From assembly GCA_030765065.1 (NCBI GenBank), contig CM060990.1:285785341-285849340 (forward strand): a stretch of 64,000 bases of DNA, in the 5' to 3' direction. Positions 15,269 through 56,843 of this stretch are shown one piece after another; the first letter of the stretch is position 1; each line of letters starts with the position of its first letter. The notes beneath the pieces were generated by a model. The model worked only from the letters and a program-made list of their open reading frames with translations. It was not told the DNA's origin and made no database searches. Position numbers and translations under genes: made by a program. This stretch comes from Deroplatys truncata. Taxonomy: Eukaryota > Arthropoda > Insecta > Mantodea > Mantidae.

Positions 15269-15453
15269 CTGGTAAAGCTTTGGCTAGTGTGAACAAAGTT
15301 GAATCATTAGCAACAAAGCAAGATGTAAACAACAGTGCTGCTTCTTTGTGATGCAGGGATGCCAGTTCAGCTTCTAGTCTCTCATGATAAAGAGAATTTC
15401 CTGAGATATTGCGTGTCCCTCCTGCACCAGTACCATGTATTTCCAATGCTTTC
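15269..15453 (-). CDS. Alas: Alas exon (glycine-rich GTRNISG region), 5-aminolevulinate synthase
   Basis: This is the next exon of the same gene, about 61 residues. It reads [20 protein letters not shown], then [20 protein letters not shown], then [20 protein letters not shown]. The [12 protein letters not shown] stretch and [16 protein letters not shown] are highly conserved in ALAS; the Thr of GTRNISG is a substrate contact in bacterial enzymes (from memory). The acceptor is a pyrimidine-rich tract ending TTTTACAG just above 15453, and the donor GTGAGT begins at 15268. The first base completes the AG|G arginine codon carried over from the exon at 56633, so the two exons are consecutive. The exon ends in phase 1 after LP, where the family continues with a glycine. 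The PLP lysine and later exons lie outside the window. The sequence is intact, with no sign of decay. Confidence 0.94.
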
Positions 15454-15455
15454 CT

Positions 15456-16109
15456 GTAAAAGAAGTAGCAATATGAGAGCATCTACCATTAATTCTCTCT
15501 CCCGCACACCTCTCGCTCTCTCTCTCTCAAAAATGGAAGGAAAAATTATTGGCCTTTTCTATTATATTTTAAGATTTAACAATTTTCTGTGAGCTCTGTA
15601 TTTCTAGATTTATAATTAACTGAATGCATGATTATAAAAAATATCACTTGGTTCAAAGCTCTCTTCATGTACTTCATAAAGGACAGTTTCCAAAATAATG
15701 GAATGGGAGAGGGTATCCCAGCAGGAGAGCCTGCAAATTTAGCTGTTGATTTCCACAGAGAAAACATATGAAACTGTTGTGATCAGCCTCTCCAGTAGGT
15801 ATTGTCAACACCAAAAGCAATGTGGGAGCATTGAACTGCAATAAAATCACTCCATGTATTTTCTGATACCTCCTCTTTTAAAAAATTTACAATTTATAGG
15901 ATGTTGGAAATATTTAAAACATCTGGGTATGTGTTAGGCAAAAAGAAGCACAGACAGCCAACAGTTCTGAGGAAAAATTAGGCTTCGTAGAAACACATCC
16001 AAGAAAATCACTGCCTCACGTAATACTTCAAGTCTTTCAGTTCCATCTGACTATAGAGCTGTTCAGAAACTATAACCAAGATCACCTAAAGTAACAGCAG
16101 TGCAAAGTC
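15456..16109. other. Intronic, mostly unassigned
   Basis: A CT-rich stretch (CTCTCGCTCTCTCTCTC near 15512) lies upstream of the Alas acceptor on the plus strand. The rest shows no coding similarity. Confidence 0.4.
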
Positions 16110-19109
16110 TGGCAGATGTGAATAATAATCCAAGGCTATGTTATTGCAGCTGACTTTTGCAGTAAGGGAGGGAGAATGGCAATATGAGTCTCAAACACAT
16201 AGCAAGCTTCAAACCACTAAATTGAATAATAAAAAAAAGCACTGAAAATGCTTGTGAAATAGTAGCAACAGAAATTCAAAGGGAAAACAAAAAGATTATA
16301 ATTATGTCATACTACTGGTCACCAAGTAGTGCAACAAAAGATTTCTTCCAAAATCTAATACTGGTACTGAATCAGCTAATAGGGAAAATGTTGTGATATT
16401 AAGGGATCTTAATATAAATAGGGATTTCAATAGTAGTGATAATTAACTGGTTGATCTAGCTAATATATACAAACTCCAAATTGCAATAAATGAACCAACA
16501 AGAGTAATCAATCCTACTGCAACTATTATAGATCAAATTTTAGCAAACTTGCCTCCAGAACAATATCATACAAATGTAATAAAAAGTCACTTATCAAATC
16601 ATTATGCATTGCAAATACAAATTTCTTTTAGAATCCCAGTATTACAAAATCTCAACAAAATAGTGAGGAAAATTAATAATGCAAATATAATGGCTCTCTT
16701 TGTGCTATGTTACAAAATAAGCAATGGATAGAAATTTATAATGAAAGGATGTTAATGAAAAGGAGAGAACATTTTTATACCATATTTAACTATTATACGG
16801 ATATTGCTTGTGCATTAAAATGTAAGAAAATAAAAAACACAGTAAAAACAATGGATTAATAAAGATTTAATTATAGCAAAAGCAAAATTAAAACATTATT
16901 ATGACAAGTATGAATTTCAAAATTAGGTAACGATAAAGACACACTTATAAATTTTAAAAGAAATTACAGAAAATTAATAAAAGAATCTAAATCAGAATAC
17001 ATAAAACACCTAATTAAAAAATGAAATAATGTTACAAAACAGCTTGGAATCTTATAAATAATGAATGTTGTAAAGGCAAAAGTCAGCACATAAATATTGA
17101 AATAATTAAAGGTAACAACATAATAAGAAATCTTTCAGAATTAAGTAGCCTATATAATACTGGCTTTGTTGAAAATATTAATAGACTACTAGGTAAAAAA
17201 GATACCACTTTAAATCGTATAAAGCTATATAAACATATCTTTAACTCAATATTCCTTTCAGACATATCTGAAGAGCTTTTAAAGGTGATAAATAAAATGA
17301 AAGCAAAAACTCAACAGGCAAAGATGGAATCTCAACCATTCTTTTAAAACAATGTGCTCGCAGCATATTAAAACCATCAGTAGAATTGATCAATACAAAT
17401 ATAAATTCAGGAATATATCCTAACTAAATTCTATTATAAAACCCTTGGCAATAAGCACTCAATAGAGAACTATCATCCAGTAACATTGGTTTCGAAAGTA
17501 ATGGAAAAATCATTGGTAATCAAATCATGTCATTGAAAGGAAAACACAAGATTTTCAATAATTTTCAACATGGTTCAAGGAAAGGGAGATCAATGAAGGA
17601 TGCAATAATAGAAATAGTTGAATGTCTTATCAACAGTCTAGAAAATAGAGAACAAAATAATTGCATATTTTTGGACCTAAGTAAGGCTTTTGATTGTGTA
17701 GACCATGAAATATTATTAAATAAACTACACCAGTATGGAATCCGCAGAGTAAAATTTAAATTAATTAATATTTAGGTGGCAGAACAAAAGTTAAAATTAC
17801 ACATAAAAGTAGTCACCAAATAAAGGAATAGTACTCTGTGAAATATGATGTACCACAGGACTCACTATTAGGGCCCATGTTATAATATATATGAACAATA
17901 TATGTACCATTGACATAACATGGGAAACTTATTGCATATGCAGATGAAACTTCTATAGTAAACACCAATGAAAGCTTACAGAAATTAGGTACCTATACAA
18001 AGCAAAACATAAAACAAATTATAGATTATAATGGACAGAAGTATTGTTAATTGTGATGTTATCATATTATAAATTGAAGTCAGTTAACACTAAGCACCAT
18101 TGTGATGTGAATTAATATGTAATGACTCACTTCAATTATAATAAAACAAATTGTTGAATTTCATTAAGATAAGGAAAACAGGATTCATGAACTTTCAAAC
18201 AATCCAAAACAGAAATGAAATCTAACTGAATTTTAATATAAATAATAAAGAACTTAATGAAATAAATCCTTTTAGGAATAATACTGGATAAACATTTCAC
18301 ATGGGACAAAAATAGATAAAGCCTGTAACAAAGTAAATTCAAGTATATTGTTATTAAAATGAACGGCAAAAATCTTTGATTTAAACATATTATTGAATAT
18401 CTATTGTGGATTAATATACCCTCATTTACCATATAGAATTACAGTATGGGGATAAAGCACTACTAAGTACACCAAAGGGCATTTTACATTACAGAAAACA
18501 GCAATTAGAGTAATGTTAGGTCTAAATCCATAGGAATCATCCAGAGATTATCTCAGAAAATTAAATATTCTAACTTTGAACACACTATATATATCTTTGA
18601 GGTAGTAATGTATCTAAAACATAATGAAAATAATACAAAAATTAACAGCCAGATTCATGACCATTTTACTAGAAGTAACACACATTTCCATATAACTTCA
18701 CATAAATTACAACTGTTTAAGTGGAAACCCACTGTAGCTGTTTGCATGTTTTTAAATAAACTATCAATACAAATATGGAAATAAAAGATTTAAAACAATT
18801 TAAAAGGGAGTGAAAAAAATATTGTGTTCAAGGATGATGTTATTTAATAGACGGGTTTATGAATGGATAAATTTTATTACTGTTACACTTTGTGTATCGT
18901 ACATCATTAAATTTTTTTCTACTGGGCAAAACACTATACATATTAGCTTAAGGACAAACTGTGTACATACATTTTCTTTGTTATAGCTTGTAAAAGTAGG
19001 AATGTATATAGGTAGGACTTAAAGTATTGTATTATATAACTTCTTTTGTACTTCACCTTTACTAGGCAATGTCATGAATTAATGTCATTTTAAATAAATG
19101 AAATGAAAT
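16110..19109 (+). mobile_element. Non-LTR retrotransposon, (AAATG)n family, copy A (EN and RT, decayed)
   Basis: From about 16110 the endonuclease-type domain is recognisable (GYVIAADFCSKGGRMAI, then VVILRDLNIN for GDFNIN, PTRVINPTATIIDQILANLP, and SHLSNHYA for the SDH motif). The RT part reads [17 protein letters not shown], then [20 protein letters not shown] (motif A), then YDVPQDSLLGPM (motif B) and AYADETSIVN (YADD changed to YADE). The thumb and C-terminal region continue to 18840, and the 3' end is ATAAATGAAATGAAAT. The family resembles jockey/CR1-group LINEs; I do not assign a clade. Many stops and frameshifts are present. It is colinear with copy B at 19505-21384. Confidence 0.83.
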
Positions 19110-19440
19110 CCATATGTTGACCCTGTTCTCCTTTATCTTTCTGATGAAATTTGGCTACATCCATTGAGTCATATGAACACAAAGAACAATAGATGATAAG
19201 GTTCTGAAAATTCACACCAATTAAATTGGAAACTACCACAGAATGTAGATGGGAGTGTTGTGTTCTAACAGAGGAACAAGATTCATTGGGCCCATTCCTA
19301 TCTTCACAGAACTGACAGCTGCAGAACATGCCCATAGTTGCTTTATGCAAGATAATTCAACTGCATTTACAGCAGATCTGTCTATGGAAGAATTACAATG
19401 CATTTTTCATGACAGAATAATTGAGGCATTGGCATAACTT
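19110..19440 (+). pseudogene. Mariner-like transposase DDE-domain fragment
   Basis: One frame reads YLSDEIWLHPLSHMNTKNNR, with the first catalytic Asp in SDEIW. After a frameshift the next frame reads RGTRFIGPIPIFTELTAAEH, then CFMQDNSTAFTADLSMEELQ (second Asp in QDN) and IFHDRIIEAL. This is the middle of the same transposase kind as at 14095 and 14640. The third acidic block is absent here; a piece with SPDLNPWDYYLW occurs at 22262, beyond LINE copy B. The fragment lies directly at the 3' end of LINE copy A. Confidence 0.7.
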
Positions 19441-19559
19441 CCAAAATTTTGAATTTTTAGGTTTTTTATTGAGAAGCTAGTAATTGACAATGGCAATAGT
19501 ACAGTGAAGGTAGCAAGTATGTCTATATGAAATTAAATGAAGTTGAAAACATAGTTTAG

Positions 19560-20303
19560 TTGTATTATTTAGACATTGCATGCCCTTTAAAAGACAAATT
19601 AATTAAAACATACACAGGAAAGCAGTGGATCAATAAAGATATAATTTTAGCTAAAGACCAATTAAAACGTTATTATGATAAATACAGTTTAACAAAGCTA
19701 AATAAAGATAAAGAAACTTATATAACTTATAAAAGAAATTACCGTAGTTTAATAAAACAGGCTAAATCAGATTATATAAAAACTTTAATGTGTAAATCAA
19801 GCAATATCACTAAAACAGCTTGGAGTATAATAAATAAGGAGTGTGGTAAAAGCACAAAACTGCATGAGAACATTGAAATAAATGTGAGACACAAAAAAAT
19901 AAGGGATCCCTTAGATATAAGTAATTTATTTAATGAAAGTTTTATTGAAAACATAAATAATTTAATAAGTAAAAGACATACAACTTTAGATCAAATAAAA
20001 GTGGGTAAAAATATTTGCGATTCAGTATTCCTACCAGAAATATCTGCAGATGAACTATTAAATGTAATAAATAAAATTAAAAGTAAAAAGTCTTCAGGTA
20101 AAGATGGCATATCAACAGTTCTTCTAAAGCAGTGTTCACACAGTATTTTGAAACCATTAATAGAACTGATAAATGCTTGTATAACTTCTGGAATTTACCC
20201 CAACTGTTTAAAGGAATCTATTGTAAAACCGCTATATAAAAATGATGACAAGCATTCAACAATCACACATAAATGTGGGCAGCAAATTAATACTTACTAT
20301 TAA
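19560..20303 (+). pseudogene. LINE copy B ORF2, linker and RT fingers (247 aa open)
   Basis: The frame covers the endonuclease-RT linker and the start of the RT. Blocks include KSKKSSGKDGISTVLLKQCS, then ISADELLNVINKIK and IVKPLYKNDDKH, where intact relatives have PLYKKGD...NYRPI. It ends abruptly in HKCGQQINTYY, where an internal deletion joins it to the region upstream of motif B. Without the palm it cannot be active. Confidence 0.75.
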
Positions 20304-20371
20304 AAAATGTGCAGCGTTAAATATGGTGTCCCGCAGGGCTCGATACTTGGTCCCTCCTATTTATAACTTAT

Positions 20372-21241
20372 ATGAATGATTTAATGATAATAAGAAATGG
20401 TAAAATAATTTCATATGCTGATGACACATCAATGGTAAACACAAGCGTAAATCTTCAAAACCTCGTAACTTGCAATAATCAAAATATCAAACAAATCACA
20501 CACTTTTTCATGTTACATAATTTGCATATTAATACAAAGAAAACAGTTCATATGGAAGTAAAGCTGGTCCAAAACAGAAAGGACATTCATCTAAAAGTTT
20601 ATATAAAGGATGAAGAGATTAATGAGGTGACATACACCAACTTCCTAGGAATAATACTTGACAATCATCTCACTTGGGATAAGCACACTGATAAAATCTG
20701 TAATAAAGTAAGTACAAGCATTTTTCTACTAAAAAGAATGGCAAAAGTTGCAGATCTAAGAATATTGATGAACATTTATTATGGATTAATATATCCACAT
20801 CTGTCTTATGGAATCACCGTTTGGGGACAATGTGCTGACAAGTACTTTAAAAGACTATTCATATTACAAAAAAGATCAATCAGGATAATTATGGGTTTAA
20901 AGCCACAACAATCCTGTAGGGATTATTTTAAAAAATTAAATATTTTAACGCTATACTCATTATATATATTTGAAGTTATAATGTATCTAAAACATAATGT
21001 AAGACGGGAAATAGTTAACAATCAAACACATAACCATGCTACAAGAGGTAACACAGATTTTCATGCAAGATCACATAGAATCCAGCTTTTTAAAACTAAA
21101 CCCACTGTGGCCGCATGTACATTTTACAATAAACTACCTATTTATATTAAAAACATAACAAATTTAAAACAATTCAAAACAGAATTGAGAAAATATTGTG
21201 TACAAGGTTGTTTTTATTCCTTAAATGAGTATCTGAAATGA
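20372..21241 (+). pseudogene. LINE copy B ORF2, RT motif C to C-terminus (289 aa open)
   Basis: Just upstream, in another frame, lies YGVPQGSILGPS (motif B). This frame opens with MNDLMI, then IISYADDTSMVN (catalytic YADD intact), FLGIILDNHLTWDKH, then YGITVWGQC, LFILQKRSIRIIMGL and SCRDYFKKLNILTLYSLYIF. These are the usual thumb and C-terminal blocks of jockey/CR1-group LINEs. The open frame ends in YSLNEYLK, as does the homologous end of copy C. Confidence 0.8.
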
Positions 21242-21384
21242 TTTGTTGTGTGTATTTTAATTGTAAAATAAGTTATTATTTGTAAAATATTCATTGATTT
21301 TTTTTAATGTATATATTGATGATGTCATGAATTCTATGTAATTTTCAACGACTGATAATAAATGAAATGAAATGAAATGAAATG

Positions 21385-22261
21385 TGCAGCTGTTGGCATG
21401 GACAAGGTAGTAACTCTAGTGTGTCAGAGCAGCTGGTACCCGAATGGATTGTCTAAAGTGTTGCTAATGAGTAGTAGTAATTATTGTGATACAGATCTGT
21501 GTTTACGGTCAACATGTCTCCAAGACCTCTTCCGTTTAGAATGGTGAGTTGAATTAATGATTCTTGCTTTACTATTTCTTGAGTGTTTAACCTAACTTGT
21601 TTATAAACCAAACAAAATCTTAACCAGACAACATGTAAGTGGCATTACAAATGATGTTAACTCCCTGAAGAAGCTATAAGAAAACTTCACACAAGTGTTT
21701 TGGAAACAGCTGATGTGCAAGGTAGCTTCTGACAGATCTCATTAACATCGTTTTTGAACACAAATCCTATCAAAATCAGCACCTTCAACTGAGTTTCCTA
21801 TAAAAATAAAAGGAGACAGTTATTTAATAGCATTGAAATGTGGAAGGATTTTTAAGAAAGGCTAGTCAATCACTAACTTGCAGTGCCTGTAATGTACTGA
21901 AAGAAGACCAGTCGTCCCTGATGCTAAAAAAGGGAGACTGGTTATCTCTGCAGGACTTCCTGGGTGCAAAGTCTCATGCATTTTACCAGAACATTTGTGC
22001 ATAACGTATAAATAACATTAATTCTCAGCCTGGCTAAGCAGTGATTTCTATGCTGTATTTTCAAAAAATATGATTTCACAGACAAATTTGTGTCAAACTT
22101 CAAATTTCATATGTAACACAAACTGTCAGTGTACTCATATACCTTCCATTCCAAGCAGCTTCTATAATAATGTAGGTGAGAAAGAGTTCATAAATTTGTT
22201 TTTCTTTTTTGATTCCCTTGAAAAATTTTATTTATGGCAGTTAACCTTTCCCATGTCAATG
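21385..22261. other. Intronic, no gene recognised
   Basis: Mostly unique-looking AT-rich sequence. An exon-like MSPRPLPFRM followed by GTGAGT occurs near 21514, but nothing supports it as a gene. Confidence 0.4.
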
Positions 22262-22334
22262 TCTCAACTGACTGTCCTGTTTACTCTCCAGATTTAAATC
22301 CATGGGATTATTATCTATGGAGAATGATGCATTG
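22262..22334 (+). pseudogene. DDE transposase fragment (SPDLNP block)
   Basis: A 21-residue frame contains CPVYSPDLNPWDYYLWRMMH. SPDLNP.DYYLW is the third-acidic-residue block of mariner-type transposases. It is short but very specific. It could be the continuation of the fragment at 19110-19440, displaced by LINE copy B. Confidence 0.5.
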
Positions 22335-22635
22335 AAGCTCACGCATGAGTTGGGCTTGGGTCACGTGAAATGTTCATGTGACCCACACCCAAGAATAGCT
22401 CGGGGTTATTATTTCTTCCAATTTCAATGCATTTTCGTGACTATAACTCAGACTTGGGCTATGCAACGATGGCGAGGTATCTTTCGTCTAGTTGTTCAAA
22501 TCTTTATTGCCATTCTGTTACCAGTTTGTTAAACGTCTTAGAAAACTAAGAGAGTTGGCACTATCAGCTGTTCTGACCATTTTCCTAGAAGGTGACGAAT
22601 GGTAGTGTTACATTTGGTGTGTATAAACATTAATG
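22335..22635. other. Intronic, no gene recognised
   Basis: Contains an imperfect inverted repeat of TTGGGCTTGGGTCACGTGAA and TTCATGTGACCCACACCCAA near 22350-22393, forming a possible short hairpin. No coding similarity. Confidence 0.4.
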
Positions 22636-22678
22636 TTCAGTGGTTTGAAAGGTAGAATCAGAAGACTGAAAAATTCAA

Positions 22679-22751
22679 TGCCATAGCCGGGATTTGAACC
22701 ATGGATCTCCCGGTCTCCGTCCGGTTGCTCTAACCACTGAGCTACCATGGC
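22679..22751 (-). ncRNA. tRNA-like sequence (SINE head type), left arm
   Basis: 73 bases starting GCCATGG and ending CTATGGCA, which form a 7-bp acceptor stem with one G-T pair. The A-box-like TAGCTCAGTGGTTAGAG and B-box-like GGTTCAAATCC are intact. The anticodon arm is CCGG-ACGGAGA-CCGG, where the loop lacks the universal U33 and the T-stem is not paired, so I do not regard it as a working tRNA gene. Confidence 0.6.
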
Positions 22752-23120
22752 AACATGCCGACACGACATTAAATTCTCCAGCTGATTCGCATTTTTCTGG
22801 TAAACCACAAGGAGATCTCAAATTGTATTGAGATGTCATACCCCAATGGTGACTTACAAACATTGTAAGTACTTAAGTCCCGGGCTTTATAGTTGCAACT
22901 ACTATTAGGTCAATTAATGGAATTAATTGTTCTTTCACACAAGCCGTGTGTTGTTAATTGACCTAATAGTGGTTGTAACTATAAAGCCCGGGACTTAAGT
23001 ACTTACAATGTTTGTAAGTCGCCATTGGGGTATGACATCTCAATACAATTTGAGATCTCCTTGTGGTTTACCGGGAAAAATGCGAATCAGCTGGAGAATT
23101 TAATGTCGTGTCGGCATGTT

Positions 23121-23193
23121 GCCATGGTAGCTCAGTGGTTAGAGCAACTGGACGGAGACTGGGAGATCTGTGGTTCAAATCCCGGCTATGGCA
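23121..23193 (+). ncRNA. tRNA-like sequence (SINE head type), right arm
   Basis: Mirror copy of the left-arm tRNA-like sequence, with a few substitutions (CAACTGGACGGAGACTGGG in place of CAACCGGACGGAGACCGGG). The substitutions weaken the anticodon stem. The acceptor stem, A box and B box are retained, so RNA polymerase III recognition is conceivable. Confidence 0.6.
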
Positions 23194-23282
23194 TTGAATT
23201 TTTCAGTCTTGTGATTCTACCTTTCCAACCTTGTCCAACACACGGCTTGTGTGAAAGAACAATTAATTCCATTCAGTGGTTT

Positions 23283-24519
23283 CCTCAATTTCTCTGAAAT
23301 GAATCTGAAATTGTGAATGCCATTAATGAAGCAAATCTGACAGAGAGCTTTGCAAGCTTTCAGACCATGTATATGTTCCGGAAAATGCCAGCAAGCAATG
23401 GTTATTATTACAAGTGAACTTTTGGATGTGAGCAACATACTTTTCATGACACGAAACAACAGTATCTATAGAGGTTTATGTTATTTTGCTCTTTAGATGC
23501 TGACAGCGACAAATACAGTAGAAATAATGATGATGCAAAGTTAACTGAACCATGTGATGCCATGCCCACCCACATGGATCCTGTTCAACCTGGAACTTCT
23601 TGAGCAGTATCTCCTAGACTCCAGCAAAAGAAAAATCACTGACAAAAATAGTGTGTTAGATACTGCAGTAGGCTGGTCATTCAGCGATAATCAACTACCT
23701 CCATCTTTACCACAGTTTACAGAAGTTAGTGGGGTAACTGTTTTAAATGTGATGTTAACTGCTTTATGCAGATTATTTTTAAAAATCACATTTTGATGCA
23801 TTTTACAAACTTCCAATAAAATATCAATATGTACTGATGTTGATCATATTTTTAGATATCCTTTCGGAATATAGTAAGATGTTTTAACATATTTCATTAA
23901 TATAGGTACTATAAACAACATTCTGAATAGCTCCCAAAACTTCGGTTTCTTAGCTCTCCAACTGAAAAAAAAATGCCTGGGCTCAGTGTTAAAAGTTTAT
24001 CCAATACATCCCCACTTGTTCAACAAATTAGAAGACAGTATCCAGCATGGATTTTCCAATATTTTGGATGCAGAAATTTGCATGTTCAAAAATATGACCA
24101 ATAGGTGCCAACTTGACAGATACATAGAAGGGTATAGTTTCCAACATCTTATATGATGAAAGGTAAGCATAACATATTCATATTGTTTTCCATTGTTAGC
24201 ATCATCTAAGGGAAAAATGATGGGCTAGTCTACCACTACTGCACAAACAGATTTCTATAGCAGTGCTGTGGGAGTAGCAGGTTGCCAATCACATTGTTCA
24301 AGAGAAATCCAATACATCAGCATAAGGTACTCATCATTGATGGCTTAACAATAAATATTACCAAATACTTTGCAGATGAAATAGAATGGAGTACGATCAG
24401 AGAAAAATACAAACCTTTAAACAAGGACCAAACTTTAATCATAATTAAAAGTAGTGTTAACTGCCCAATGATGCAGCTATAATAAGATTTATGTAACTAT
24501 GAAGGATTTATAGTTGATA
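23283..24519. other. Intronic, no gene recognised
   Basis: AT-rich sequence with short open frames lacking recognisable motifs. Confidence 0.4.
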
Positions 24520-24527
24520 CTCTAAAT

Positions 24528-24682
24528 CAGAGGTGGCAAAAATGTGACTCGCGAGTTATTTTGACTCACAGGCACCGTTCCTTCTCTGCAACCATCCGTT
24601 TGTCTTTCACATGCTGCTGAGTGATGCAGTGCATGTTGCATATTTGGTGACTCGCAGAAGGAAGTCGTTTTCGCCACCCTTG
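24528..24682. mobile_element. 155-bp hAT-type MITE
   Basis: The ends are imperfect inverted repeats: CAGAGGTGGCAAAAATGTGA on the left and, as reverse complement, CAAGGGTGGCGAAAACGACT on the right. An exact 8-bp target duplication, CTCTAAAT, flanks the element (24520-24527 and 24683-24690). An 8-bp TSD with CA..TG ends is the hAT signature. There is no coding capacity. GACTCGCGAG and its partner GACTCGCAG form subterminal repeats. Confidence 0.85.
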
Positions 24683-24690
24683 CTCTAAAT

Positions 24691-25719
24691 TAACTATTTG
24701 TAAACATTCATCATTTAGGCAGCCACCAAATGGAGGAAGTGGAATAAATAAATTACTCAGTTTACAAACTATGGTTAAAATATCTCCAAGAGTTTTTCAG
24801 TTATAAGCATTTAGACCCAGCCTCCCCCAAAAACCAAAAGAAAATTCACACAAAAATCAACAATGTGACATCAATTACAAAATATACTTGTGTAAAAACA
24901 AAGCTCAAACATAATATACATAAAATACTTTTATATCTCTGAGTCTTATTTAGTTAATTTGAGCATTCTTGAAACTATAAAGCTAACCCATAAATGTAAG
25001 AAAGAAAAGAATTAGCTGTCTATTGTATTATATTGGACACACATCAAGCTTTCATACAAACATTCATGAAAAACTTTCTTACTATATCACTGGTTTTAAT
25101 CACAAATGAATGTTTCAGAAAAATGACTAATGGTCTTCTTTATTAAATTTAAACAAAGGAGACTGTTTATCCAGAAAATGCATTTGCTTATAAAATCACA
25201 GTAATGAGTTTGTACTAATTTGTATTCAGCAAAGCTTATCCACATATTGGAACAGTGACACTACTGTTGCTTGTTTACATTTTGTTATGTGCAAAAGAAC
25301 TGCTGAGGTCTCAACAAACAAGGGCTATAAATTTTGTGGCACCTGCTAAGCTCATCATTCCAAAAGCAATGGTGAATGAAAGTTCAATTAATATATCTTC
25401 TAAGAAATAATCTGCTTTACTTAGCCAGGCTAAGATTATAGCCTATAATGTTACAAAATATGGCATAGAAAAAGAAGGTGCAGCAGTAATTTCATTAAAA
25501 GAAGCTATGCATTATATAGCACCTATATCTAAACACTCATATACTACGTTGATATTGTAATGAAAAGAAGCTAGAAACAGTGATGTGTATTGAATTTATT
25601 TAAATAACCTCATAAACCTTTAAACCTTTAAATAAACTCATATACTACTTTTTTCTGTTTATTTAAAGTCATGCTAACCATAGTTAATTTGATAAATGTG
25701 AGTAATGTGCATAATTACT
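24691..25719. other. Intronic, no gene recognised
   Basis: AT-rich, with no coding similarity. A run of repeated TTTAAACC/ATAAAC words occurs near 25590-25640. Confidence 0.4.
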
Positions 25720-26430
25720 GGGTATTATACAGCGCCGAGCAGTCGGAGTAAACAAGATAAGGGTCACTTGCCAATGTAAACATGGGCAGGTTATTGGGAG
25801 ATAACTAGAGCTTCCTGGAAGTTTCTTCTCCCCCACTCCTATAGAAAGTGTGTTGAAATAGTTCTACAACATTTGAAAGCCTTGTGGAAAGATTCCACTG
25901 ATTATATAAGCAAGTGCTCTCGTGAGAGGCGGTCAATCGATGGAATTGAGTCAGTGGTAATAGTAGAGTGAGTCACTTCGGTCAGCCATTGAACAAGTGG
26001 TTTGGCAGGCGAGTTTCCCATGTGACATCAAGAGTGATTCTACAAGCGAGTTGGTGATGGCTGTAGTGATGTGCAGCAAGTGTTACTGCGGAGCAACGGT
26101 TGTGGAGGTCTTGCATTCGACCCCAAATGAATAAACCATCCAGTGTGAAGAGGCTACGTCACGAAGGAAAAGAAGTGATAGAGAAATTAACTAGTTCACC
26201 TTGGTGAAGTGATAGAGTAAAGTGAACCCGCAGTGAAGTTGTACTAGATAAAACAACTAAACAGTGACAGTGACTGGGTGAGAAAAGTGACAGTTAAAAA
26301 CAAAACTGGACAAAGCCACATTATGGATGCTGAAGAGTTGTTGAATGCTTTTAAGAATAAGAAGGAAAACAATGGGATGATGAGTAAAGAATACCACCAG
26401 AAGTTAATTCAGAAAGTATGACTGTCAAAA
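25720..26430 (+). mobile_element. Possible LTR and leader of an LTR retrotransposon
   Basis: This GC-richer block has a TATA-like ATTATATAAGCAAG near 25899 and a long untranslated leader. A short frame starts at 26324 (MDAEELLNAFKNKKENNG, then MMSKEYHQKLIQKV) and resembles the beginning of a gag-like protein. The frame ends after about 32 codons. No partner LTR, primer-binding site or pol sequence follows, so the assignment is inference from layout only. Confidence 0.3.
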
Positions 26431-26559
26431 GCTAAAATCAGTGGAGGGGGGGGATGAGAGAAAACCCTGAGAATCATTAATGACTGAAGTGGTATGACAT
26501 TATGAAGTTGAAGTTAGGTGATTGTGAAAAGTTAATATATCCTGTGAGATATCCATCAG

Positions 26560-26560
<1 letters not shown>

Positions 26561-26594
<34 letters not shown>
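26561..26594. repeat. (ATC)n microsatellite
   Basis: About eleven ATC units preceded by TCCATCAGC. (ATC)n tails also occur on the 58-bp insertion at 10309, so this could be the tail of a related short element. Confidence 0.85.
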
Positions 26595-28160: not shown

Positions 28161-28179
28161 ATATCAATGTTAGAAGTTG

Positions 28180-28251: not shown

Positions 28252-28291
<40 letters not shown>

Positions 28292-45126: not shown

Positions 45127-48060
45127 ACATTTTCACTACTCTTTTATCTATTTGTTCTACTTCTATAGGAGTTATATCCATATATGAATTAATTTATATC
45201 TTTCTGTACACTAATTTTAGTAAATCAAATAAATCTCATTTTAGATCATTTTTTGCAATTACTAAGTCATTTTAAAACAAATGTAGTCATTTTTTTAAAA
45301 ACATTAGTCATCAAAATCCAGGCCCTGCTTATAAGCCACCGCTCTGCCTTATTTCCTCTCATGTATTTACGTTCACCTCCCCTGTATTTGCTCAAAAAAT
45401 ATTGATTTGTTTCGTAAAGCCTCTCCTGCCTGTTTGGTGTGAAATGTGTCCATGTTTTATACAAAATAATGAAAACTAAGATACTAGTAAGTTATTGCAT
45501 TTTCCTTGCATAAATACTAAATAATATATGTACCTAATTACAATTGGCAAGTTCCTTGTACCTACCTCCTTTCCCTCAGTGTAAAATGTTTCAATGATCG
45601 CCAGTGAATACACTAATACACCTCCTTTTAACAACACCTACTTCCCCGTGGGTGAAAACATTAAATTTTTGTGCTTTTTGAGCTTGCGAGCGTATACTAA
45701 AACATACAAGAAAGGTTGTTCTAAAATTAACATCTATCAAAATATTAAGGCTAGACGCATCCTTGTTCTTACTCTTTCAAGTAGGGAGGATCAAATGGGA
45801 ACTATAATCAATGAATTATTCATTAATTAAAAAATTAAAACAACTTTGTACTAGAAACAATTAAGAAACTAGGTTTATATAAGCACATTTTCAGCCTAAA
45901 TAATGAAACCAAAACATCCAAATTCTAAACACATCATTCAGAATGTCCACTATTCTGTCTGAAACTCAGTTTATTTGAAAACTGCAGGATATTTGCAAGA
46001 CTTGCCATGCAGATATATGTTTTCAGCATGTGAGCACAGTTTCATATGCATAAGTTGATTATTCATGTTTTTACCTAGAAACGAAAAAGAAAAAAAAAAA
46101 AAAAAAAAGGCTCGGAAAATGCACATATATCAAGTTTTCATCTATCATGACTTTTAAAACTGCTATGTTTAAATCATATTACATAATAACATGATCAGCA
46201 TACAGTTTCCCTCAATATGCTGTTTTTTTTTCACAATACATAAACAAACTATAATTTAATTTCGAATCAAAGTTTAAGACCCGATAGTGTATTACGTTGA
46301 ATATATTTTATTTTCGTTGCTAAAATTGGCCGAATAATGCATTATTGGTTTTCTTTAACATAATATAATTAAAGTCAAGCAAAAGCATAAACTAAGAAAC
46401 ATGGTTTTAAAGCTTGCAACTTTGAACTTCTGAACAACTTTAATATGACAAATATCTGCTTTCTATCTACATATAACTTATTTCTTTGAATAACACATAT
46501 GCTGTAAGTCATCCCTCAAGCCCAACTTTCATATAGCAACAGCTTTTTAGCGAATATTTCAAGGGGAAATGAAACTGGCGCCACTTGGGTATTTAGCTGT
46601 AAAAAGGCAGGTTTGTGTTTAATATTTCCAAGACTAAGTCTAGTTATAGATGCAGTTTTGTTTCAAGTAGTGTAGGGTCGATTCAGATCGTATAATGAGA
46701 ATATTATCCAAACTTTCATGCCGAGAAGTACTGTGCAGAATACTGGCTAGCTAAAACTTCACTCTCGATGACATCATGCAGCAGGCAGACCGAAAGCAGA
46801 ACAAGCGAAAACGGTGCGGGAAGAGACCCCCCTGGGTGTGACCTACCAGATACCCCAATATTTTTTTTTTAGTTTTGTGCATGAGAAGCTTTACGGCCCA
46901 TGCATATTGTTTGTTGAGAAGCTGTAATGTGCCATTTGTCACAGAGTTAAAACCTGATGGTCTCTGCTGATGCTATAGTTTATTGTTATGCTGTTCAAGG
47001 TAATGATGCTATCTATTTTTTTTCTCCCCCAGTTCACTCAAGTTAAAATCTCACGGTCTTGTTTACGATCTGATGTTGCAATATACTGAGCACATACTAT
47101 AATGTTATTCAGTTTTCACTATAGTTGCCATTTTTTTGTATGTGAGTGTTTATGTTGGCATCTGATAGATTTCTGTAGGTTCTGTAACCAGGGAAGGATA
47201 TGCAAGCCCTGCTTTTACTAAGTAATTTTGTTTTATAGGTGAAGTATTACACAAAGATATGCTATGTTCAGTTCACGTTCTAGTATGTTTTATTGTTAAT
47301 GGAACACAACTTATGAATTTGTAATAATGTGGGATACCATCTCTTATTATTCATTTATGTCCCGAAATAATTCATGCTCTGTATGCTAACTCATCTTTTT
47401 AAGTTTGGCATAATTTGATTGCACAGCTGTACACTATATTGTTATGCTATCTAAGTGAAAAAACAGCTCATGTATCTCGTTAAGCAACTTATGACTCAGC
47501 AACCATTTCTGTACCGTACTTGTTTTAGGTTAACTAGGGAACATGATCAACTCTTGCCTTTTGGCTTTTTCTCTTTAAAATCTGTATTATCATTTCATGT
47601 ATTCTTTTTCTATCTCGCATTTTTACAATACTATTTTTTATTGTTGGTGTTGGTCTCTATTCAGCTTATCCCCCCCCCCCCAGATTTTCCAGTAAGTTTT
47701 AACCAGTGTCAACTTAGTTGTTTCATTACTAATGTGTTTTATATATATGCATTTTTTATATTAATTCTGTCTTTGTTGCCAACACCCCTCTTGCTGCCCC
47801 CCACACCCCATCTTTTGTTTCCCCCATTTCTTTATTTACTGCTACGTTTTACTGATCTGTTGTTTTGTTTTCCCAAGCTATCCCTGAATCATGCCATCTG
47901 CCGACTTCCTTCCTATGCCACACAGGCACTTACTAATACTGCATCCGCCCACTTCAGATGCCTTGTGGTGACCTCTTATTGAGGACACACCCAGAATGCC
48001 ACTTTGGCATTGTTTTCGCCGAGGGGACTGCTTTTTTTGCTGGACATTTTTGGGCACAAT

Positions 48061-48100
48061 GGGGGGGGGGGGGTGCATGCATGCATGCATGCATGCATGT
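48061..48100. repeat. G13 plus (TGCA)n microsatellite
   Basis: Thirteen guanines run directly into about six and a half TGCA units. TGCA is self-complementary, so the second part can form a cruciform; alternating purine-pyrimidine also favours Z-DNA. Confidence 0.9.
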
Positions 48101-48783
48101 GTGAGTATGTGTGCGCTGATGCTGATGGAGTGTGGGCCTCTCTGTTGTGAGGTTAGGCCCGCACCATGTGATCAGAGGCTTATTAGGTCTACCTTCTCTA
48201 CGTCTTCCTGCCTGCACAGATGCTTTAGTGATTGCGCATATTTTGTTTTACTCATGTATTAAGTATGAAATGTACTCCAGAAATTTTCCTTCAAGATTTA
48301 TCCTATGTTGTATACAGTGCTGCCACAACGGATTAATGGTATTGCTTATGTGAGAAAGCCATCGTTGGACAGTGACTGCAGCAGAAGCAACAAATTTAGT
48401 CTCATCCTTGCTCATTCAGGGTGTTGCCAGTGTGTTTAGGTGTGCTCCTCAGGACATGTGCTTGCTGTAACAGCATCTAGACTGTTCTCGCTTTATGTCA
48501 TTGCAAGTACTACTGTGTTCACTTTTGTTCCTCCTCTTTTTTTCCCTCTCCTTTTCCTGTCCTCTGCATGATAGCCATTTTTGTACCCCCTCCATTACCA
48601 TTCTAGACCTATCCTCAGTTATCCGTTCTGCCCAGCCTATCAAATGTAATGTGACTATACTCATCTATTGTTGTTTTCTCCTCCCCTATTAGGTACCCTT
48701 ACTTTTGATTTCCTTTTTATCTTCTTTCCTTAGTAGGTTTTATCACAGCTGTGGATAGCTGGGTTTTCCTAGCGTGGCAGAGG

Positions 48784-49459
48784 TTGTGATGGTTATAATT
48801 TTATTTTAAAAGATTTTGATAAATATCATTTTATAAAGTTTGAGATATTCAGGGCAAACTTCAAGTAACTCCAAGAAAGTTGCTTTAGATTTCTTGCACG
48901 TCATTTTCCAGATGTTGAAGTAAACAGAGGTTGGGTGACATGTGTTTTAGAGTAAAAGATCACTTCATGTCCGACACATGAGTGAGTTGCATAATTTTTG
49001 CTGACATATGCATGTCAATTACCAGGTGGGCACTAATCAGCATTTTGTCGGCTGTTTAAACTTAGGGTTTTTTTGACAGCGCTCTCTTGACTGACCACAT
49101 GCCTAGTAGGACCCTGTATTGGTCAGCGCCATAAAATTTATTTAAGTGCTAATTTGCAACCTGACGTAGGCACCAGGCATGACGAAGATGGAGCGTCAGA
49201 CTTCTTCCGTACATCAGGTAAACCTTCATGCTGTCTAATTCTTTCCCTCTGAAATGCAGTTTAGTTTATATTAGAAAGATTAAAGATTAGAATAATTGGT
49301 AAGAGAAATTACATGTCTGATAATGCCACCCTTTCACCACCCTTCCACCTACCATATGCTGAAAGTAACCCTCTCGATGCCATCCTATGCTACATCCCCA
49401 ACCTTTACATGACATTTGGCGAAGGTGCTGATGGCGTTGTCACCACCCTTACATCACAA
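48784..49459 (+). repeat. Dispersed ~660-bp repeat, copy 2 (possible solo LTR)
   Basis: Starts TTGTGATGGTTATAATTTTA and ends TTACATCACAA, so the outermost TTGTGATG and CATCACAA are inverted repeats, as in LTR ends. It aligns along its whole length with 29415-30070. Shared internal landmarks include GTAGGACCCTGT.TTGGTCAG and GACTTCTTCCGTACA. No flanking duplication was found. Confidence 0.75.
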
Positions 49460-49489
49460 TATTGACAGGGGTAGAGGTGTACCCAGAAC

Positions 49490-49800
49490 ATTCTTGGGAT
49501 AATTTTGAAGGTGAATGCTAATGGCGAGATGTGTGAGATTGGCACAAAGGAAAGAAGATTGTCTCCAAAGTGTTTGAGGAACCAGTTTTGTCATTTGTAC
49601 AGACACAATTCACAAGAGGAAGTTCCAGATGTTACTGTATCTATTTGTGAGTGTGCCTGAAAATTGTCTGTCACAGGTGGTCAAGGGTTCAAGAGATGTA
49701 ACTGCAACAAAAAATACCTTTCAACAAAATGTGGTTGCAAACGTTATGGGTGACTCTGTAATTCAAAATGTCATGATGGTTTGCCATGTTCTAATATGTA
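49490..49800 (+). pseudogene. Cysteine-rich integrase tail (KRBA2/SCAND3-like), fragment
   Basis: One frame reads KVNANGEMCEIGTKERRLSP, then HNSQEEVPDVTVSICECA, a stop, and KLSVTGGQGFKRCNCNKKYL, then STKCGCKRYG, a stop, and LCNSKCHDGLP. The GGQGF.RC.C..K....KCGC+....CNSKCH pattern is the C-terminal cysteine-rich tail that I associate with KRBA2/SCAND3-like integrase-derived proteins and their transposon relatives (from memory). The integrase core is absent upstream. It directly follows the dispersed repeat copy 2, which may or may not be meaningful. Confidence 0.5.
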
Positions 49801-52800
49801 GAAGGTTGTTTATTTACAAAGGTTAATAAAGCATTCTTTCAATAAATAAAATACTATATTCTTTATTTCACAATCCTGAATATTATATACATTTATCAAA
49901 TTAACGTTTACACACACAGTATACAGAACATTGAAACAAGGTACAAACGTGAGAAATAAGGAATGGAAATTAGCATCCCAAAGACAAACAAGAGGAGGAA
50001 TATGAACAAACTGATATTTAAATGAAATGGACAGATGCATAAATCAATATTATTTTCAGAACACTATGTTAATGAAAAGGAAGTTGCAACATTATGCATG
50101 TCAGCCCTTTGTTACAAATAACTCTGGAAGAGGCTTTCTGTCAACCAATTTCTCCACCCAACATCCTTCTATCCCCTTTGTTGCCTATTTCTAGTCACTG
50201 TGATGTCTTTCTTGAGAAAGCTTAAAAATGCAAAAATGCTGGGGAAGTTTTAATCCAAGAAGTTTATAAACAGCCAAATGCTAATTTATGGAATATATGA
50301 GGATACCTAAACTACTAGATCAAATTAAACAAAACAAGCTACCAAAAGAATTTTCAACTGAACATGTTCTGGAGCATTTGAGTGCTCTCATACCACCTAG
50401 CTTTGAAACTTGAAGCTACTAGAGTAAATTAATGAAATGATTCATATTTGACAAAACCTTAGGAACAATATCAGTCACTGTTTTGAAAAGAATGATACCT
50501 GAAGTATTTCAGAAAATTACACTGGAAGACTGGAAAAAATCTTGTGCATATGATAATTGGACGAGAGTGTTTTGGATAATATGTAGAATTGGAATAACCT
50601 TATTCACAAATTTCCTCCAGTTTTTGCACAGTATCAGCTCATGATGATGAAAGGAAATTCAGCAGAAACAGCTGACATAGTTATAGATGCCTTAAATGGA
50701 ATTCAATCATTGTAAAATGTGTACCTGGTACATGTTCAATGTCTGCCACAAAGGATTGTGCTTTTCACATTTCAAATGCTAAACACAGTTCCCTTTTAAA
50801 TTCATTGTACTTATAGGAATAGTGCAGTCTAAACTCACTAGCCAGTATCATTTTTTAGAAACCTCCTATAAAATATTATAAAAATGTCTATTTTTGTCCG
50901 AACTCAATGTGATTAGATGAAATAAATATATGGAGCATAACAGAATATGTGTAATATCACTTGATTTATTCTCAGGTGAAGACATAGTAGAAGCATTTAA
51001 ATATTCATTCCAGTGTTAAAAGCATACTGTAAAACACAAAATGACTAATGAAGTTTTGCTAAAATATACATAAATTGTGAATATTAGAGGACAAATTTAA
51101 ATGCACTATAAATCATGAATTTATGCAAGTATTTATGTGGTAAAAAAGTTGAAAATTTATTCTAAAAATAAATAAATATGCATCAAAATATTTTAATAGC
51201 ATAAGAACTACACAATTTTCTTACATAACTTTATTAGTTTTATAAAGAAATAAGTGTATTGACTTTTAATCTTTCATTGCTTACTGAAAATAGTAATTAT
51301 GATCTCTTATGTTATTTATAGTCAATAATCTAGTATGAAATATTATGTGACCTTTTAACAATCATTTTATAATTTTTTTATTACAATAACCAATTATTTT
51401 ATAGATTTTCTGCACAGGAAACATTTCCTTCTGTGACTTTAAACCATTTTGTACAATGAAAATGTCCTCTCCACTTCACATGAAGCCACAAGACAGTACC
51501 ACAAACACGGTATGCATTCACAGAATATGAATTAAACTGTTTTTCAAGATTGACCTTATAACACATTGTTAGCATTCCAAAAAAAACATTAGTCCTGGAT
51601 TTCTGACTTCATTTTTTTCCATTTTGCGATGAAGCTTCTTTCCAATTTTTCCATGCACATCTTCAGCGAAAGCAGTTTCATACTGTGGTACATCTCTTTT
51701 TTCCAAATGTATGGCTATGGCTGGTCGTTTGCTAAAATAGCTTTTAACAAACAGTAATTTAGTCTGCAGACTTCTCATTCAGTATGTCGCTTCAGCCAAT
51801 GAAAGCAAAAAAGCTGTTTCATTCCACATGGAATTACAAATTCCTGAAAGCCTTCTGCAAAGCAAAAGCAAGCTGCATATTAACATTTAGAGTAGCAGAA
51901 TATATCTGACCCAAGCGGCACTATCACTATCCCCCCCCCAAAAAAAGCAAGATATTTAATACAAATAGGAATGCTGGTTGTTTATATGAAAACAAGATCT
52001 CTGTCTTCTGTAAAAGCATGGCAGTAAAACAGAAGCTCCCGTTTGATGAAAAAAACATGAGTATTTTGAATACAAATAGAGAACAAATGTATCCATATGG
52101 AAATATTAGTGAAATATGCATTTATCTGCAATACAAAACTTCCACAGCTGAGACCTCATATCATGAAACACATTTCTCTCTTCCTAAGCATACATTCAAC
52201 TTTCAAGGGGGAGGGGGGAAGGAATATGCTACTATGCAGGAATCCACCCTCTAGTAATTATTTATTCAGCTTTCTAAACAAACAGCAGATTAGACTGATA
52301 TAACATCCTTGGCAGTCCTAAATATGTGAAACATTTTGTTATGCCCAGCAAATTGTTTGTTATCCTATTCACTACATAGGACTATATAACATGATTTTTA
52401 TGATCAATTATCATCCATTAATTAATCCAATTCATAGACTTTATAGACCATGAATCTCCAGATCTTAGCATTTTGTATATCCCAGTTTAGTCATGCTTCT
52501 TTTCAGAACTGTTAGTTTATATTGTTGATCAAATGATAGAACATTTGTTACACAGTTAACACGTGCTCATTTGGTTTATATTTTGAGACTCACCATGACA
52601 TGCTAATGATTGTAGTTTGAGTGTAGCAATGCAATTTTTCAGGTTTATATCATGAAATTCTATTAATTCATACTGACTTTCAACATGTCGCATAATTCTT
52701 ACATTTTGGTTCTATGTGTTCTGTGTCAGATATGATGACAAAATGAAGTTATTGGTATGAGCTGAGATGTGAAGTTCCTGCATACAGAAAATAAAATGTA

Positions 52801-53604
52801 ATGAAAAAAACTGTTTGAATCATCATTGTATATTGAAGTTAATCACTGCTTGTTGTTCAAGCTCAGCTTTCTTATGAAGAAAGGAACTAAAAGGTTCTAG
52901 ATGGACCACCATTGGAGCTACATTTATAAGGGTTTTGGTTCAATATGGATGTCCTTACTCTAGATCATGACATGGAATACCTTTGGACCAGGCACTGGAT
53001 TTTGCTATATAAGTTTTTTTTTGCAACTTATCCTTATGAGGGCTTTGAATACTGAAGATCCACTCCTAGTGTTTCCAGACTCATTCCTATTAGAATCCAA
53101 GATAGGATGCACAGTTCCTCAGACCATTCCTTCATATAACAATAATTTTCTTTAAAGGTGCTTTCAAGCTTTTCTGGATTAAAATATCAAAGATGTGAAA
53201 TGTTTATCCGTGCTGTATTACTTTCAGAGGGTTTTATTTATAGATGCTTTAAGATACAATGATTTATATTGATTGGGTGACTTTTCACAATCAGGAAACC
53301 AATAAAAGGAGATGTTTGTTTTTCCAAGATTTAGAATCACAACCAATTACTGCGCATTCTGCTACCATCACAATTTAAAGAGCCCCAGAGATACAGTAAT
53401 TTCATTACTTAAATATGCAAGCTGTGCAAATAGAAGAAATGTCATGACATTCAACACTGTGCTGCAGTATCTTTGACACAAATGCTCAGATTGTACATAG
53501 ACAACACGGTTTCATTTCTTTACTCTAGGCTTTATTTCAATGATTTTACACTGGACTGCTTCCTGTAAGAAATAGTAATTATTATAGATTTGGCTATTAA
53601 ATGT
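49801..53604. other. 3.8 kb intronic DNA without a recognised gene
   Basis: AT-rich. A C9 run is present near 51930 and GGGGGAGGGGGGAAGG near 52207. I found no family signature in any frame. Confidence 0.45.
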
Positions 53605-56412
53605 AGATAGATAGATACTTTATTTGTACATTTTTACACAGTTCTTTTTACAATATTCCACTTATAAACTAACTTAACCTATGTACAAATTTCCTTGCCA
53701 GCTATGCTGCTCTTTTTGCCTGGCACCCTGGCCTTCTGGCTCATCTAAGCATCCCTTGCTACCTTTAACCCCTATTGCCCATCCTCTCCTTCCTCCGTTT
53801 GCCTTTCTACCTTTCTTATCTCTTTTACTTTCTTTAAGAACTCCCCCATATTCTTATTTTGCTTTTCTTCCTTTCTCGTTAGCATTTTAATTGCTACTAT
53901 TTTCCTATCCATTTTTTTCCATTTTTCTTCCCATACTTCTTGTCTCCATTCTGCTAATTCTTTGCATTCTGTCATATAATGCTCTGTGCTTTCACTGCCT
54001 CCGCATAGTTCACAAATTCCATTTTTTTTACCTCTTAGCCCTCTCAGATACATTGATCCTGTTCTCATCCATGCAAACGCTTCTTTTTCTGCTCTATTAC
54101 AATAATCCACATACCCTTCTCTTCCCCATTTCCTTTTTACTAATCTATAGAACCCTAGTTACTTTTTATTCTCTAAGCTTCCCCAAATCTCTTGTCTTTC
54201 TATGTCCTCCACTCTGTTTCTTACTGTTATCCAGAAACCATTGTTATTTCTTTCTCCTGTTCTCCAAATATCTCCCATTCCTATCTTCTCCATAATTTTT
54301 TCTACCCCCGTCCACCAGCTATTTTTATTTTTCATACTTTTTGTTGTTCCATGCATATCTTTAAAATTTCCTCTTCATCTTTTCTCAGGCATCTAAACCA
54401 GAATTTTAATATCCTTTCTAGTATCACTCCCTTTCTTCTTGTTCTTCCTAATTCCACTAATGCTACTTCCCCTGGTGCTGATCTTGGTAACCCCAAAAAC
54501 TCTTTACAAAACATTCTATAGCTCTGATCTATTTTTTTGTTTAATTCAGTTCCCCCCCCCCCCCAAATTTCTACTGCATATAGCATTCTTGCTTCTACCA
54601 ATGCTTCATACATTCTTTCTATCCATTTAGTTGGCATTTCTAATTTATATTTGCACATCCTTATTCCTGTCATTGCTGCCTTTCCTTTAGCCATAACCTT
54701 ACTGCTATGCACCCCCCATTCCCCATTACTGCTCATCCTCACCCCCAAATAATCCATCTCCTTGGCAACTTCTAACTTTAAACCCCCATCTGCCATTTCT
54801 CTTCTCTTTTTAGTTTATTTCCTCTTTTAAATACCATAACTTTTGATTTATTTATATTTACTTTGATTCCCCATTCTTCACAGAATTCATGTATTCCGTT
54901 GATTGCTTTCTGTAGCCCAATTACCGTTATAGCTCCGACCATAAGATCATCCACATATAGTAAACCTGGTATCTCTGTATTTGCTATTATAGGGCAGTGC
55001 AGATTTTTTTCTTTCACGCTTTCTAATATGTCATCTATGAATATATTAAATAATATAGGACTCAATTTGCACCCTTGTCTTAATCCTATTTTTTGCTCCG
55101 TCATTTCTGTAACTCCATTATTTTTACATCTTATACAGAATCTTACATCTTTATAAATCTTTTTGATTTATTTTATAAAGTTTTTGCTTACCCCTTTCTT
55201 GCTTAATTTATACGCTAATGCTTCCCTATTTATTGTATCAAATGCTTTTTCAATATCTGCAAAAAAAACATGCATATCCTTCCTCTTTTCCTGCTCAAGT
55301 ATTTATCTATTGTAGTCTTTATTATAAATATATTGTCTATTGTTTGTTTACCTTTACTAAACCCAGCATGATATTCTGACAGTATTCCTTCCTCTTCCAC
55401 CCAGCTTCTTAATCTGTCGGCCAGTATACCTGTGTATATTTTTCCTAATATTGATAATAAACTTATTCCCCTATAATTCTTTGGTCTATTTGCTCCTCCC
55501 TTTCCTTTGTAAATTGGTACCACCATACTTATTTTCCAACATTTTGGTACATCATTCTTTTCTTTAATTTTATTTAATAATTTTGTCATCACTATTAGCC
55601 CACTTTGCATTTCCCCATATATTTTCCAGAATTCCCCTGGTATTCCGTCTATTCCTACTGCCTTGCCTTTTTTTATATTCCTTATTTGCTGGTGAACTTC
55701 CAGCTCCGTAATTTTACTGTCTAATTTCTCATTAAATATTCTTCTTGTCCTACCTCTTTTATGTCTAACTTTACCCTCTTCCCTTCACCAATTAGCCTTC
55801 TAAAGTACCCTATCCATTCGTTCGGTGTAATTTCGTTTTTATCCTCTCTCTTCTTATTCATCATCCTCACTATTTCCCATATTTTTTTGCTATCCTTACT
55901 CTCTATTGCTGCCTTTAGTTTCTTTTCTATATTTCCCTGCCATTCTTTCCTCTTAGCCTCAAGCAAACCTTTATATTCTCCCTTAAGTTTCATCAGATTT
56001 TGTCTATCCCTTTCCTTCTCTGACCTCCATCTAATAATCTCTTTAAATACCTCCTTTTTTTTACTCTGCACTCTTCATCAAACCACCCCTTAATTTCTTG
56101 GCCTTTTCCGTGCTTTCCTTCCATCCCTGCTCCTGCTCTCGTTAGCAATAATTTTAGTAACTGTAGTACTTTTTCTGAATTTACCTCATCCATAGCCATT
56201 TTTATACCACACTCCACAATCTGACTTACCTTTGACTTTAATTCTTTCACGAAGTCCTCTTTTAGTACTTCCCTCCATTTATACATTTTTATTGTTTTTA
56301 TTTTAGCTATTTCCTTATTCTTTACCTTCTGTTCCAAAACTATTAAATGTATGCAGGACATTACCAAAGAATTACAATCTTCTAACTTCCCTATGTTCCC
56401 AAGAACAGCCAA
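53605..56412 (-). mobile_element. Non-LTR retrotransposon copy F (YVDD type with C-terminal zinc knuckle)
   Basis: A minus-strand LINE, 5'-truncated within the pre-RT linker. In order: a linker frame (56412-55993), KGLLEAKRKEWQGNIEKKLK and following (56071-55721), then RT fingers (55610-55230: VPIYKGKGGANRPKNYRGIS). The palm follows (55104-54778: RQGCKLSPILFNIFIDDI and GLLYVDDLMVGA). The thumb (54796-54332) contains EMDYLGVRMSSNGEWG and LYAVEIWGGG. The C-terminal frame (54110-53772) has CELCGGSESTEHYMTEC, a C-x2-C-x7-H-x4-C knuckle. The 3' end is AATAAAGTATCTATCTATCT, a short (ATCT)n tail. Only a few frameshifts separate the blocks, so this copy is less decayed than LINE copies A and D. I do not name the clade. 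Confidence 0.85.
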
Positions 56413-56632
56413 TGTGCACTTAAGTTTTACTAACTAGTAAATTCTGCATTTTGCAACATACCAACTTCTAAGTTTCTAGCATATATCTGTGCATGCAATG
56501 AACTGAACTATGCAAATTACTGACCTCTTCAAAATTATTGTGGATTTAGGGGAATAAAAATGAAGGATTTAATGAGCAACACATGCACAGAAGCTCTCAC
56601 TCATTCACCTCCACTGGTGCTCAAGTACATAC

Positions 56633-56843
56633 CTAGCTGCAGTCTTTACTTCCGGATGACGTGACATTCCTAAATAATCATTTGAGCACCATATTGTAAC
56701 AGGTCGCTCACCATGGCTGTATTCATAAGCCACAGGGAATTCTGTAGCCAAGCGATTAACCTTCTTAAAAATTCTGTAGGAATGGTCCTTCTTTTTGCGT
56801 ACAATTTGTTGGTAGAAAAACTCTTCATAAGGGAAAGAATCAC
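56633..56843 (-). CDS. Alas: Alas exon (start of catalytic domain), 5-aminolevulinate synthase
   Basis: This internal exon encodes about 70 residues of 5-aminolevulinate synthase. That PLP-dependent mitochondrial enzyme condenses glycine with succinyl-CoA in the first step of haem synthesis. The minus-strand translation reads YEEFFYQQIVRKKKDHSYR, then FKKVNRLATEFP, then VTIWCSNDYLGMSRHPEV. The HSYR..F..VNR block and WCSNDYLGMSRHP are hallmarks of the family; the Asn in CSNDYLG lies at a substrate pocket position in bacterial ALAS (from memory). The acceptor is TTTTAG at 56844-56849 and the donor is GTATGT starting at 56632. The exon starts one base into a codon and ends with AG, completed by the first base of the next exon. 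There are no stops or frameshifts. No upstream exon (mitochondrial presequence) is visible up to 64000. Confidence 0.93.

Follow-up and report, generated by a model that had tools for sequence, protein, structure and literature searches.

A putative ALAS gene with a 41-kb, transposon-rich intron between two coding exons in the mantis Deroplatys truncata

Two short exons with similarity to the haem-synthesis enzyme ALAS lie about 41 kb apart in the genome of the mantis Deroplatys truncata, and the locus raises the question of whether they belong to one gene and, if so, whether an intron of that length is unusual for a genome of this size. The stretch analysed here, referred to as the window, comprises 64,000 nucleotides (C16:285785341-285849340) of a contig, C16, of 707,006,351 bp, within an assembly of 4.29 Gb. 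An initial annotation proposed two consecutive ALAS exons joined in phase across AG|G and separated by one intron of about 41.2 kb. The window almost certainly lies inside a single ALAS gene on the minus strand, in which the interval between the two exons (intron A-B; Table 1) would be a normal GT-AG intron enlarged by mobile elements. That exons A and B follow one another in the coding sequence of the same ALAS gene is supported by reading frame, homology and splice signals, from which the splicing is deduced.

Exon A is bordered by the acceptor ...cattttag and the donor gtatgt, and exon B by the acceptor ...cttttacag and the donor gtgagt; the two join in frame as GCT AG|G AAA, and the intron between them has GT-AG ends, a pyrimidine-rich acceptor and an in-frame junction. 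The joined product of 132 amino acids aligns over residues 3-132 with human ALAS2 (5qqq) at an E value of 1.1e-49, with a single three-residue gap that falls within exon A; the junction itself, which comes after it, is free of gaps. Searched as DNA against the 4.29-Gb assembly, exon A and exon B each returned one match, at 100% identity (one candidate each), and at the sensitivity of that genome-wide search no paralogue or processed copy of either exon was seen. Letters N are absent from the window, from the surrounding 259,340 bp and from the 127-kb stretch upstream. The proposed phased join is thus confirmed by the GT-AG borders and the gap-free junction, and the predicted length agrees with the 41,179 bp measured. 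The statement that one intron spans almost the whole window was too broad, as intron A-B occupies 64% of it, but the remainder, apart from the two exons, consists of other introns of the same modelled gene. The expectation of more gene beyond both edges was borne out: the model places two exons upstream, beyond introns of 69 and 100 kb, and three downstream, beyond introns of 52, 0.7 and 84 kb.

These flanking exons emerged from profile searches of the whole genome and from a motif scan upstream of exon A. With the equivalog profile TIGR01821, 14 candidates yielded 10 matches, of which five lie collinearly on the minus strand of C16 and cover profile positions 2-401, three lie on C4 and two on C3. 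The C4 and C3 matches are read as probable sister enzymes of the same superfamily; two of the three on C4 (C4:124091051-124103928) hold internal stops, which possibly reflect read-through into an intron and possibly a decayed gene. Joined, the five C16 core exons (A to E) encode 405 amino acids with a sole stop at the end. This core scores 606.3 bits against TIGR01821 (cut-off 338.55), and the runner-up family, bioF, reaches 308.3 bits, under its cut-off of 426.45. The core aligns with residues 25-429 of the 469 of human ALAS2, and its stretch SGTLGKAFG, identical in its letters to the aligned human ALAS2, is presumably the site of the lysine that binds pyridoxal phosphate. For the presequence, a genome search with PF09029 (5 candidates; cut-off 21 bits; matches with an E value of 1 or better kept) yielded a single match, 169 kb upstream of the core on the same strand (25.3 bits, E 0.054); the corresponding exon, P, reads MPCPFMTRLSPAYIRNYGSSLLKTYGQHCPF.... 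In addition, a scan for Cys-Pro (CP) motifs over the 127,157 bp upstream of exon A produced ten stretches, of which one, chosen by eye, was checked for splice sites. This stretch, KKCPFLAEV..., which we take to resemble the third CP motif found in animal ALAS, is flanked by an acceptor and a donor of fitting phase and was modelled as exon H.

The resulting model comprises seven coding exons (P, H and A to E) with 1,473 nt encoding 490 amino acids plus the stop. From ATG to stop it extends on the minus strand from 286011551 to 285663471, a span of 348,081 bp that is 99.6% intron. In the order P-H, H-A, A-B, B-C, C-D and D-E, the introns measure 68,746, 100,369, 41,179, 51,877, 671 and 83,766 bp; all six are GT...AG with compatible phases throughout. 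Intron A-B ranks fourth in length, and the gene encloses the entire window. With an unbroken protein predicted from the seven exons, the gene is apparently intact. The joined frame holds the CP motifs MPCPF and CPF in the presequence and a third, CPFL, before the core; placed by eye, the three occupy the positions of the heme regulatory motifs (HRM1-3) of vertebrates. Like human ALAS2 and the TIGR01821 family, the predicted protein combines a full catalytic core with CP motifs ahead of it, two of them (CPF) in the presequence and one (CPFL) just outside; the role of CP motifs in ALAS is treated in PMC9329541. Unlike the human ALAS2 chain of 469 residues, it stops at the position corresponding to human residue 429, and no vertebrate-like C-terminal extension was seen. 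In the same source an extension with CXXC is given as a feature of vertebrate ALAS; none was found in the predicted ALAS, which has its stop right after the core in exon E (C16:285663680-285663471). The ALAS gene here is, moreover, stretched over 348 kb.

Several points weigh against this interpretation, or at least against parts of the model. The PF09029 match is weak by itself, and it is the place, strand, phase and CP motifs that support exon P. Because an acceptor precedes the ATG of exon P, a further 5' exon upstream of it is likely and is to be expected. Exon H draws on its motif, frame and splice sites, with no profile match, and its borders were picked among several AG and GT positions. 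The P-H interval was read except for 40.6 kb, within which an extra exon is possible. The sequence, the order, strand, frame and phases of the exons, the one match per window exon and the unbroken protein are direct observations, from which the modelled splicing would be predicted. As regards mobile DNA, 4.3% of intron A-B matches 211 kb of other local DNA once matches shorter than 60 bases are dropped; neither exon matched in that comparison, and three random controls matched nothing. At the local scale this figure speaks against an intron packed with repeats. We take the 211-kb background to be too small for a genome that probably has many diverged families, and the genome-wide samples described below to be more telling.

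Table 1. Features of the window (positions counted from its first letter)
Feature	Position	Strand	Details
ALAS coding exon A (third in model)	56633..56843	-	211 nt; phase 1 in, phase 2 out; splice sites, frame, homology, single genome match
ALAS coding exon B (fourth in model)	15269..15453	-	185 nt; phase 2 in, phase 1 out; splice sites, frame, homology, single genome match
Intron A-B	15454..56632	-	41,179 bp, GT-AG
Part of intron B-C	1..15268	-	51,877 bp in total; exon C is C16:285748731-285748387
Part of intron H-A	56844..64000	-	100,369 bp in total; exon H is C16:285942663-285942553
Long terminal repeat (LTR) retrotransposon	40762..44678	.	1.1-kb direct repeats 96.8% identical, 1.7-kb interior, TG...CA ends, ATAA on both flanks
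P-element/THAP transposase relic	38697..39849	-	THAP E 1.2e-8, above cut-off; Tnp_P_element E 6.2e-4, below cut-off
Reverse-transcriptase relic, like a long interspersed nuclear element (LINE), several frames	33767..36253	+	RVT_1 E 1.7e-7 at 35136-35504; no match at 34040-34432; rest by eye
Reverse-transcriptase (LINE-like) relic, 200 bp from exon A	53775..56433	-	RVT_1 E 4.1e-6, below cut-off, at 55233-55784; no match at 54335-54814; rest by eye
Two diverged LINE-like copies	16447..21238	+	71% identical where aligned; two pieces tried without Pfam match
Inverted pair of tRNA-Ser-like repeats	22642..23230	.	Arms 92% identical
Arbitrary 3-kb intron sample	30501..33500	.	Two parts jointly spanning the 3 kb, repeated elsewhere in the genome at 71-87% identity

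For the interior of intron A-B, about 52% could be named as repeat or mobile DNA within hand-drawn limits. In the arbitrary sample of Table 1 the genome-wide repetition was seen among the best 40 of 375 candidates. A second 3-kb sample is repeated across the genome over its first 0.85 kb (46001-46846) at 87-91% identity, and its other 2.15 kb matched only their own locus, both among the best 40 of 2,659 candidates. Twenty pieces drawn from the 252 stop-free stretches of at least 60 amino acids in the window were scanned against Pfam: eight gave a match at E<=0.01 (three of them over the family cut-off) and 12 gave none. No sign of a gene nested in the intron was seen in these 20 of the 252 stretches, which returned either nothing or domains read as mobile-element domains; the other stretches may yet hold one. 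The insertion of the LTR element appears to be fairly recent, its LTRs being about 3.2% apart, and no Pfam match was obtained for the single interior piece tried. Its interior is short and carries tandem repeats of 33 and 66 bp at 42405-42698; it perhaps belongs to a non-autonomous family. The LINE-like label of the two diverged copies presumably holds on account of a YADD motif in frame. Further copies of the tRNA-Ser-like repeat occur in neighbouring DNA (depth up to 7), and it is perhaps a tRNA-derived short interspersed nuclear element. The initial description of the intron as rich in transposons is upheld by the LTR pair, the transposase and reverse-transcriptase relics and the genome-wide repeated samples, and "full of transposons" seems a fair description. 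The further statement that nearly everything between the exons is decayed mobile DNA is plausible and borne out in part: about half of the intron could be named as repeat or mobile DNA, and one LTR element is fairly young.

Is such a gene long for this genome? Three other enzymes of the haem pathway provide a comparison. For ALAD, the next pathway enzyme after ALAS, five profile matches (7 candidates; one match with an internal stop) lie on C8:3641206-3947900, a span of at least 307 kb, and neither end of the profile was matched in the genome search. These matches are separated by 50.8, 119.5, 81.8 and 53.8 kb; the first gap lacks 25 profile positions and perhaps holds more than one intron, and the third lacks one position. 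Ferrochelatase (FECH) gave four matches (8 candidates; one with an internal stop) on C14, separated by 4.5, 12.9 and 5.3 kb, with profile positions 88-153 falling in the 12.9-kb gap, and is more compact over the part found; profile positions 255-322 were not found in the genome search, and its full span may be larger. UROD is represented by a single open frame of 362 codons on the minus strand (C2:43414071-43415090), which was its sole match in the genome. This frame may be intronless by nature or may be a retrocopy that replaced the original, and it contrasts with ALAS and ALAD. Between the ALAS superfamily matches on C4 and C3 the distances are 12.4, 3.8 and 23.0 kb, and some profile positions are missing from the 23.0-kb gap.

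Large insect genomes studied elsewhere point in a similar direction. Locusts, with genomes of 6.5 and 8.8 Gb, have introns averaging 11-12.5 kb and pre-mRNAs averaging 54 kb (PMC7607483), and locust mRNA leaders have an upper quartile of 35-46 kb (PMC8011201); lengthened introns are described in the stick insect Clitarchus hookeri (4.2 Gb) (PMC5691397). As in these species (PMC7607483, PMC5691397), the ALAS gene here has short exons between long introns in a repeat-rich genome, but five of its six introns, at 41-100 kb, far exceed the reported locust means. The locus is less surprising than it was first taken to be, because the ALAD gaps are equally long and long introns have been described in other giant insect genomes. 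ALAS appears long, yet within the range of its genome as far as four pathway genes tell. Intron A-B was correctly identified and is unremarkable in a genome of this size.

Alternatives to a single, passively enlarged gene were weighed as follows. It is extremely unlikely that exons A and B derive from different ALAS paralogues or a pseudogene and were brought together by chance or misassembly. An N-free join would escape analysis of the sequence alone, but each exon has one match in the genome, the other core exons are collinear and share its strand, their phases fit and their joined frame is free of stops, and no N occurs in 259 kb. A paralogue mix, a processed pseudogene and an assembly join were accordingly rejected on the single matches, order, phases and lack of N letters; different genes or an assembly join had been named in the initial annotation as what would undo the pairing, and the same observations speak against both. 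It is less improbable, though still unlikely, that intron A-B contains a cassette exon, or is removed stepwise by means of recursive splice sites. A high-confidence recursive site is present in 63% of fly introns longer than 40 kb (PMC6110457), and loose acceptor-donor sites in intron A-B number 7 in sense against 2 in antisense. However, two of these seven sit in one tandem repeat (36379-36890), and over introns A-B, B-C and D-E, the three of the five long introns that the scan covered, the loose total is 13 in sense against 11 in antisense. The strict YAG|GTRAG site with a pyrimidine tract does not occur in these three introns, and when the tract rule is dropped, D-E has one such site in sense and B-C one in antisense. 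The coding residues are complete.

The great length may alternatively have been selected, for example as an intron delay of ALAS expression, rather than tolerated, which we regard as very unlikely. Both ALAS and ALAD are of great length, in contrast to FECH, which over the part found is more compact, and to the single open frame of UROD; moreover, transcription of ALAS would take about 2-4 hours at an assumed 1.5-3 kb per minute. The examined parts of the intron nevertheless look like old mobile DNA, and the comparison rests on four pathway genes of one genome. The chromosomal setting was also considered. C16 makes up 16.5% of the assembly, and for each query, representing one or two families, the best 40 candidates were scored. 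For the sample at 30501-33500, 68 matches reduced to 39 copies after pieces were merged and the window was left out; 27 of the 39 lie on C16 (p 3.5e-13; best 40 of 375 candidates), and these represent two repeats, with 24 of 33 copies on C16 for the first part and 3 of 6 for the second. Similarly, 23 of 39 further copies of the sample at 46001-46846 lie on C16 (p 2.4e-9; best 40 of 2,659 candidates). A 3-kb control query from C3 had none of 39 copies on C16 against 6.4 expected (p 9e-4; among the best 40 candidates), although it matched via a younger repeat (main copies listed 92-97% identical) and is not age-matched. C16 may have its own repeat population; that it is a large X or other sex chromosome is a guess. 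The broader conjecture that ALAS and ALAD genes of more than 300 kb brake haem synthesis through hours-long transcription while the late steps are compact or intronless, combined with a repeat population of its own on C16, perhaps a sex chromosome, is highly speculative and we consider it most improbable.

An ordinary ALAS gene whose introns were enlarged by mobile elements is hence the preferred explanation. Unrelated mobile elements that inserted and then decayed would have enlarged intron A-B, as in other genes of this 4.29-Gb genome. The short exons would be recognised by the spliceosome through exon definition, and each intron would be removed as an ordinary GT-AG intron. Insertions that spared the splice signals would have been tolerated, and it is tolerance rather than usefulness that we infer. 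The near-complete model of a rate-limiting enzyme, with a 1.5-kb coding sequence spread over 348 kb, offers a test case for the splicing of giant repeat-rich introns. Furthermore, the contrast within the pathway, with ALAS and ALAD exceeding 300 kb, FECH more compact over the part found and UROD in a single frame, is usable to ask whether gene length affects expression.

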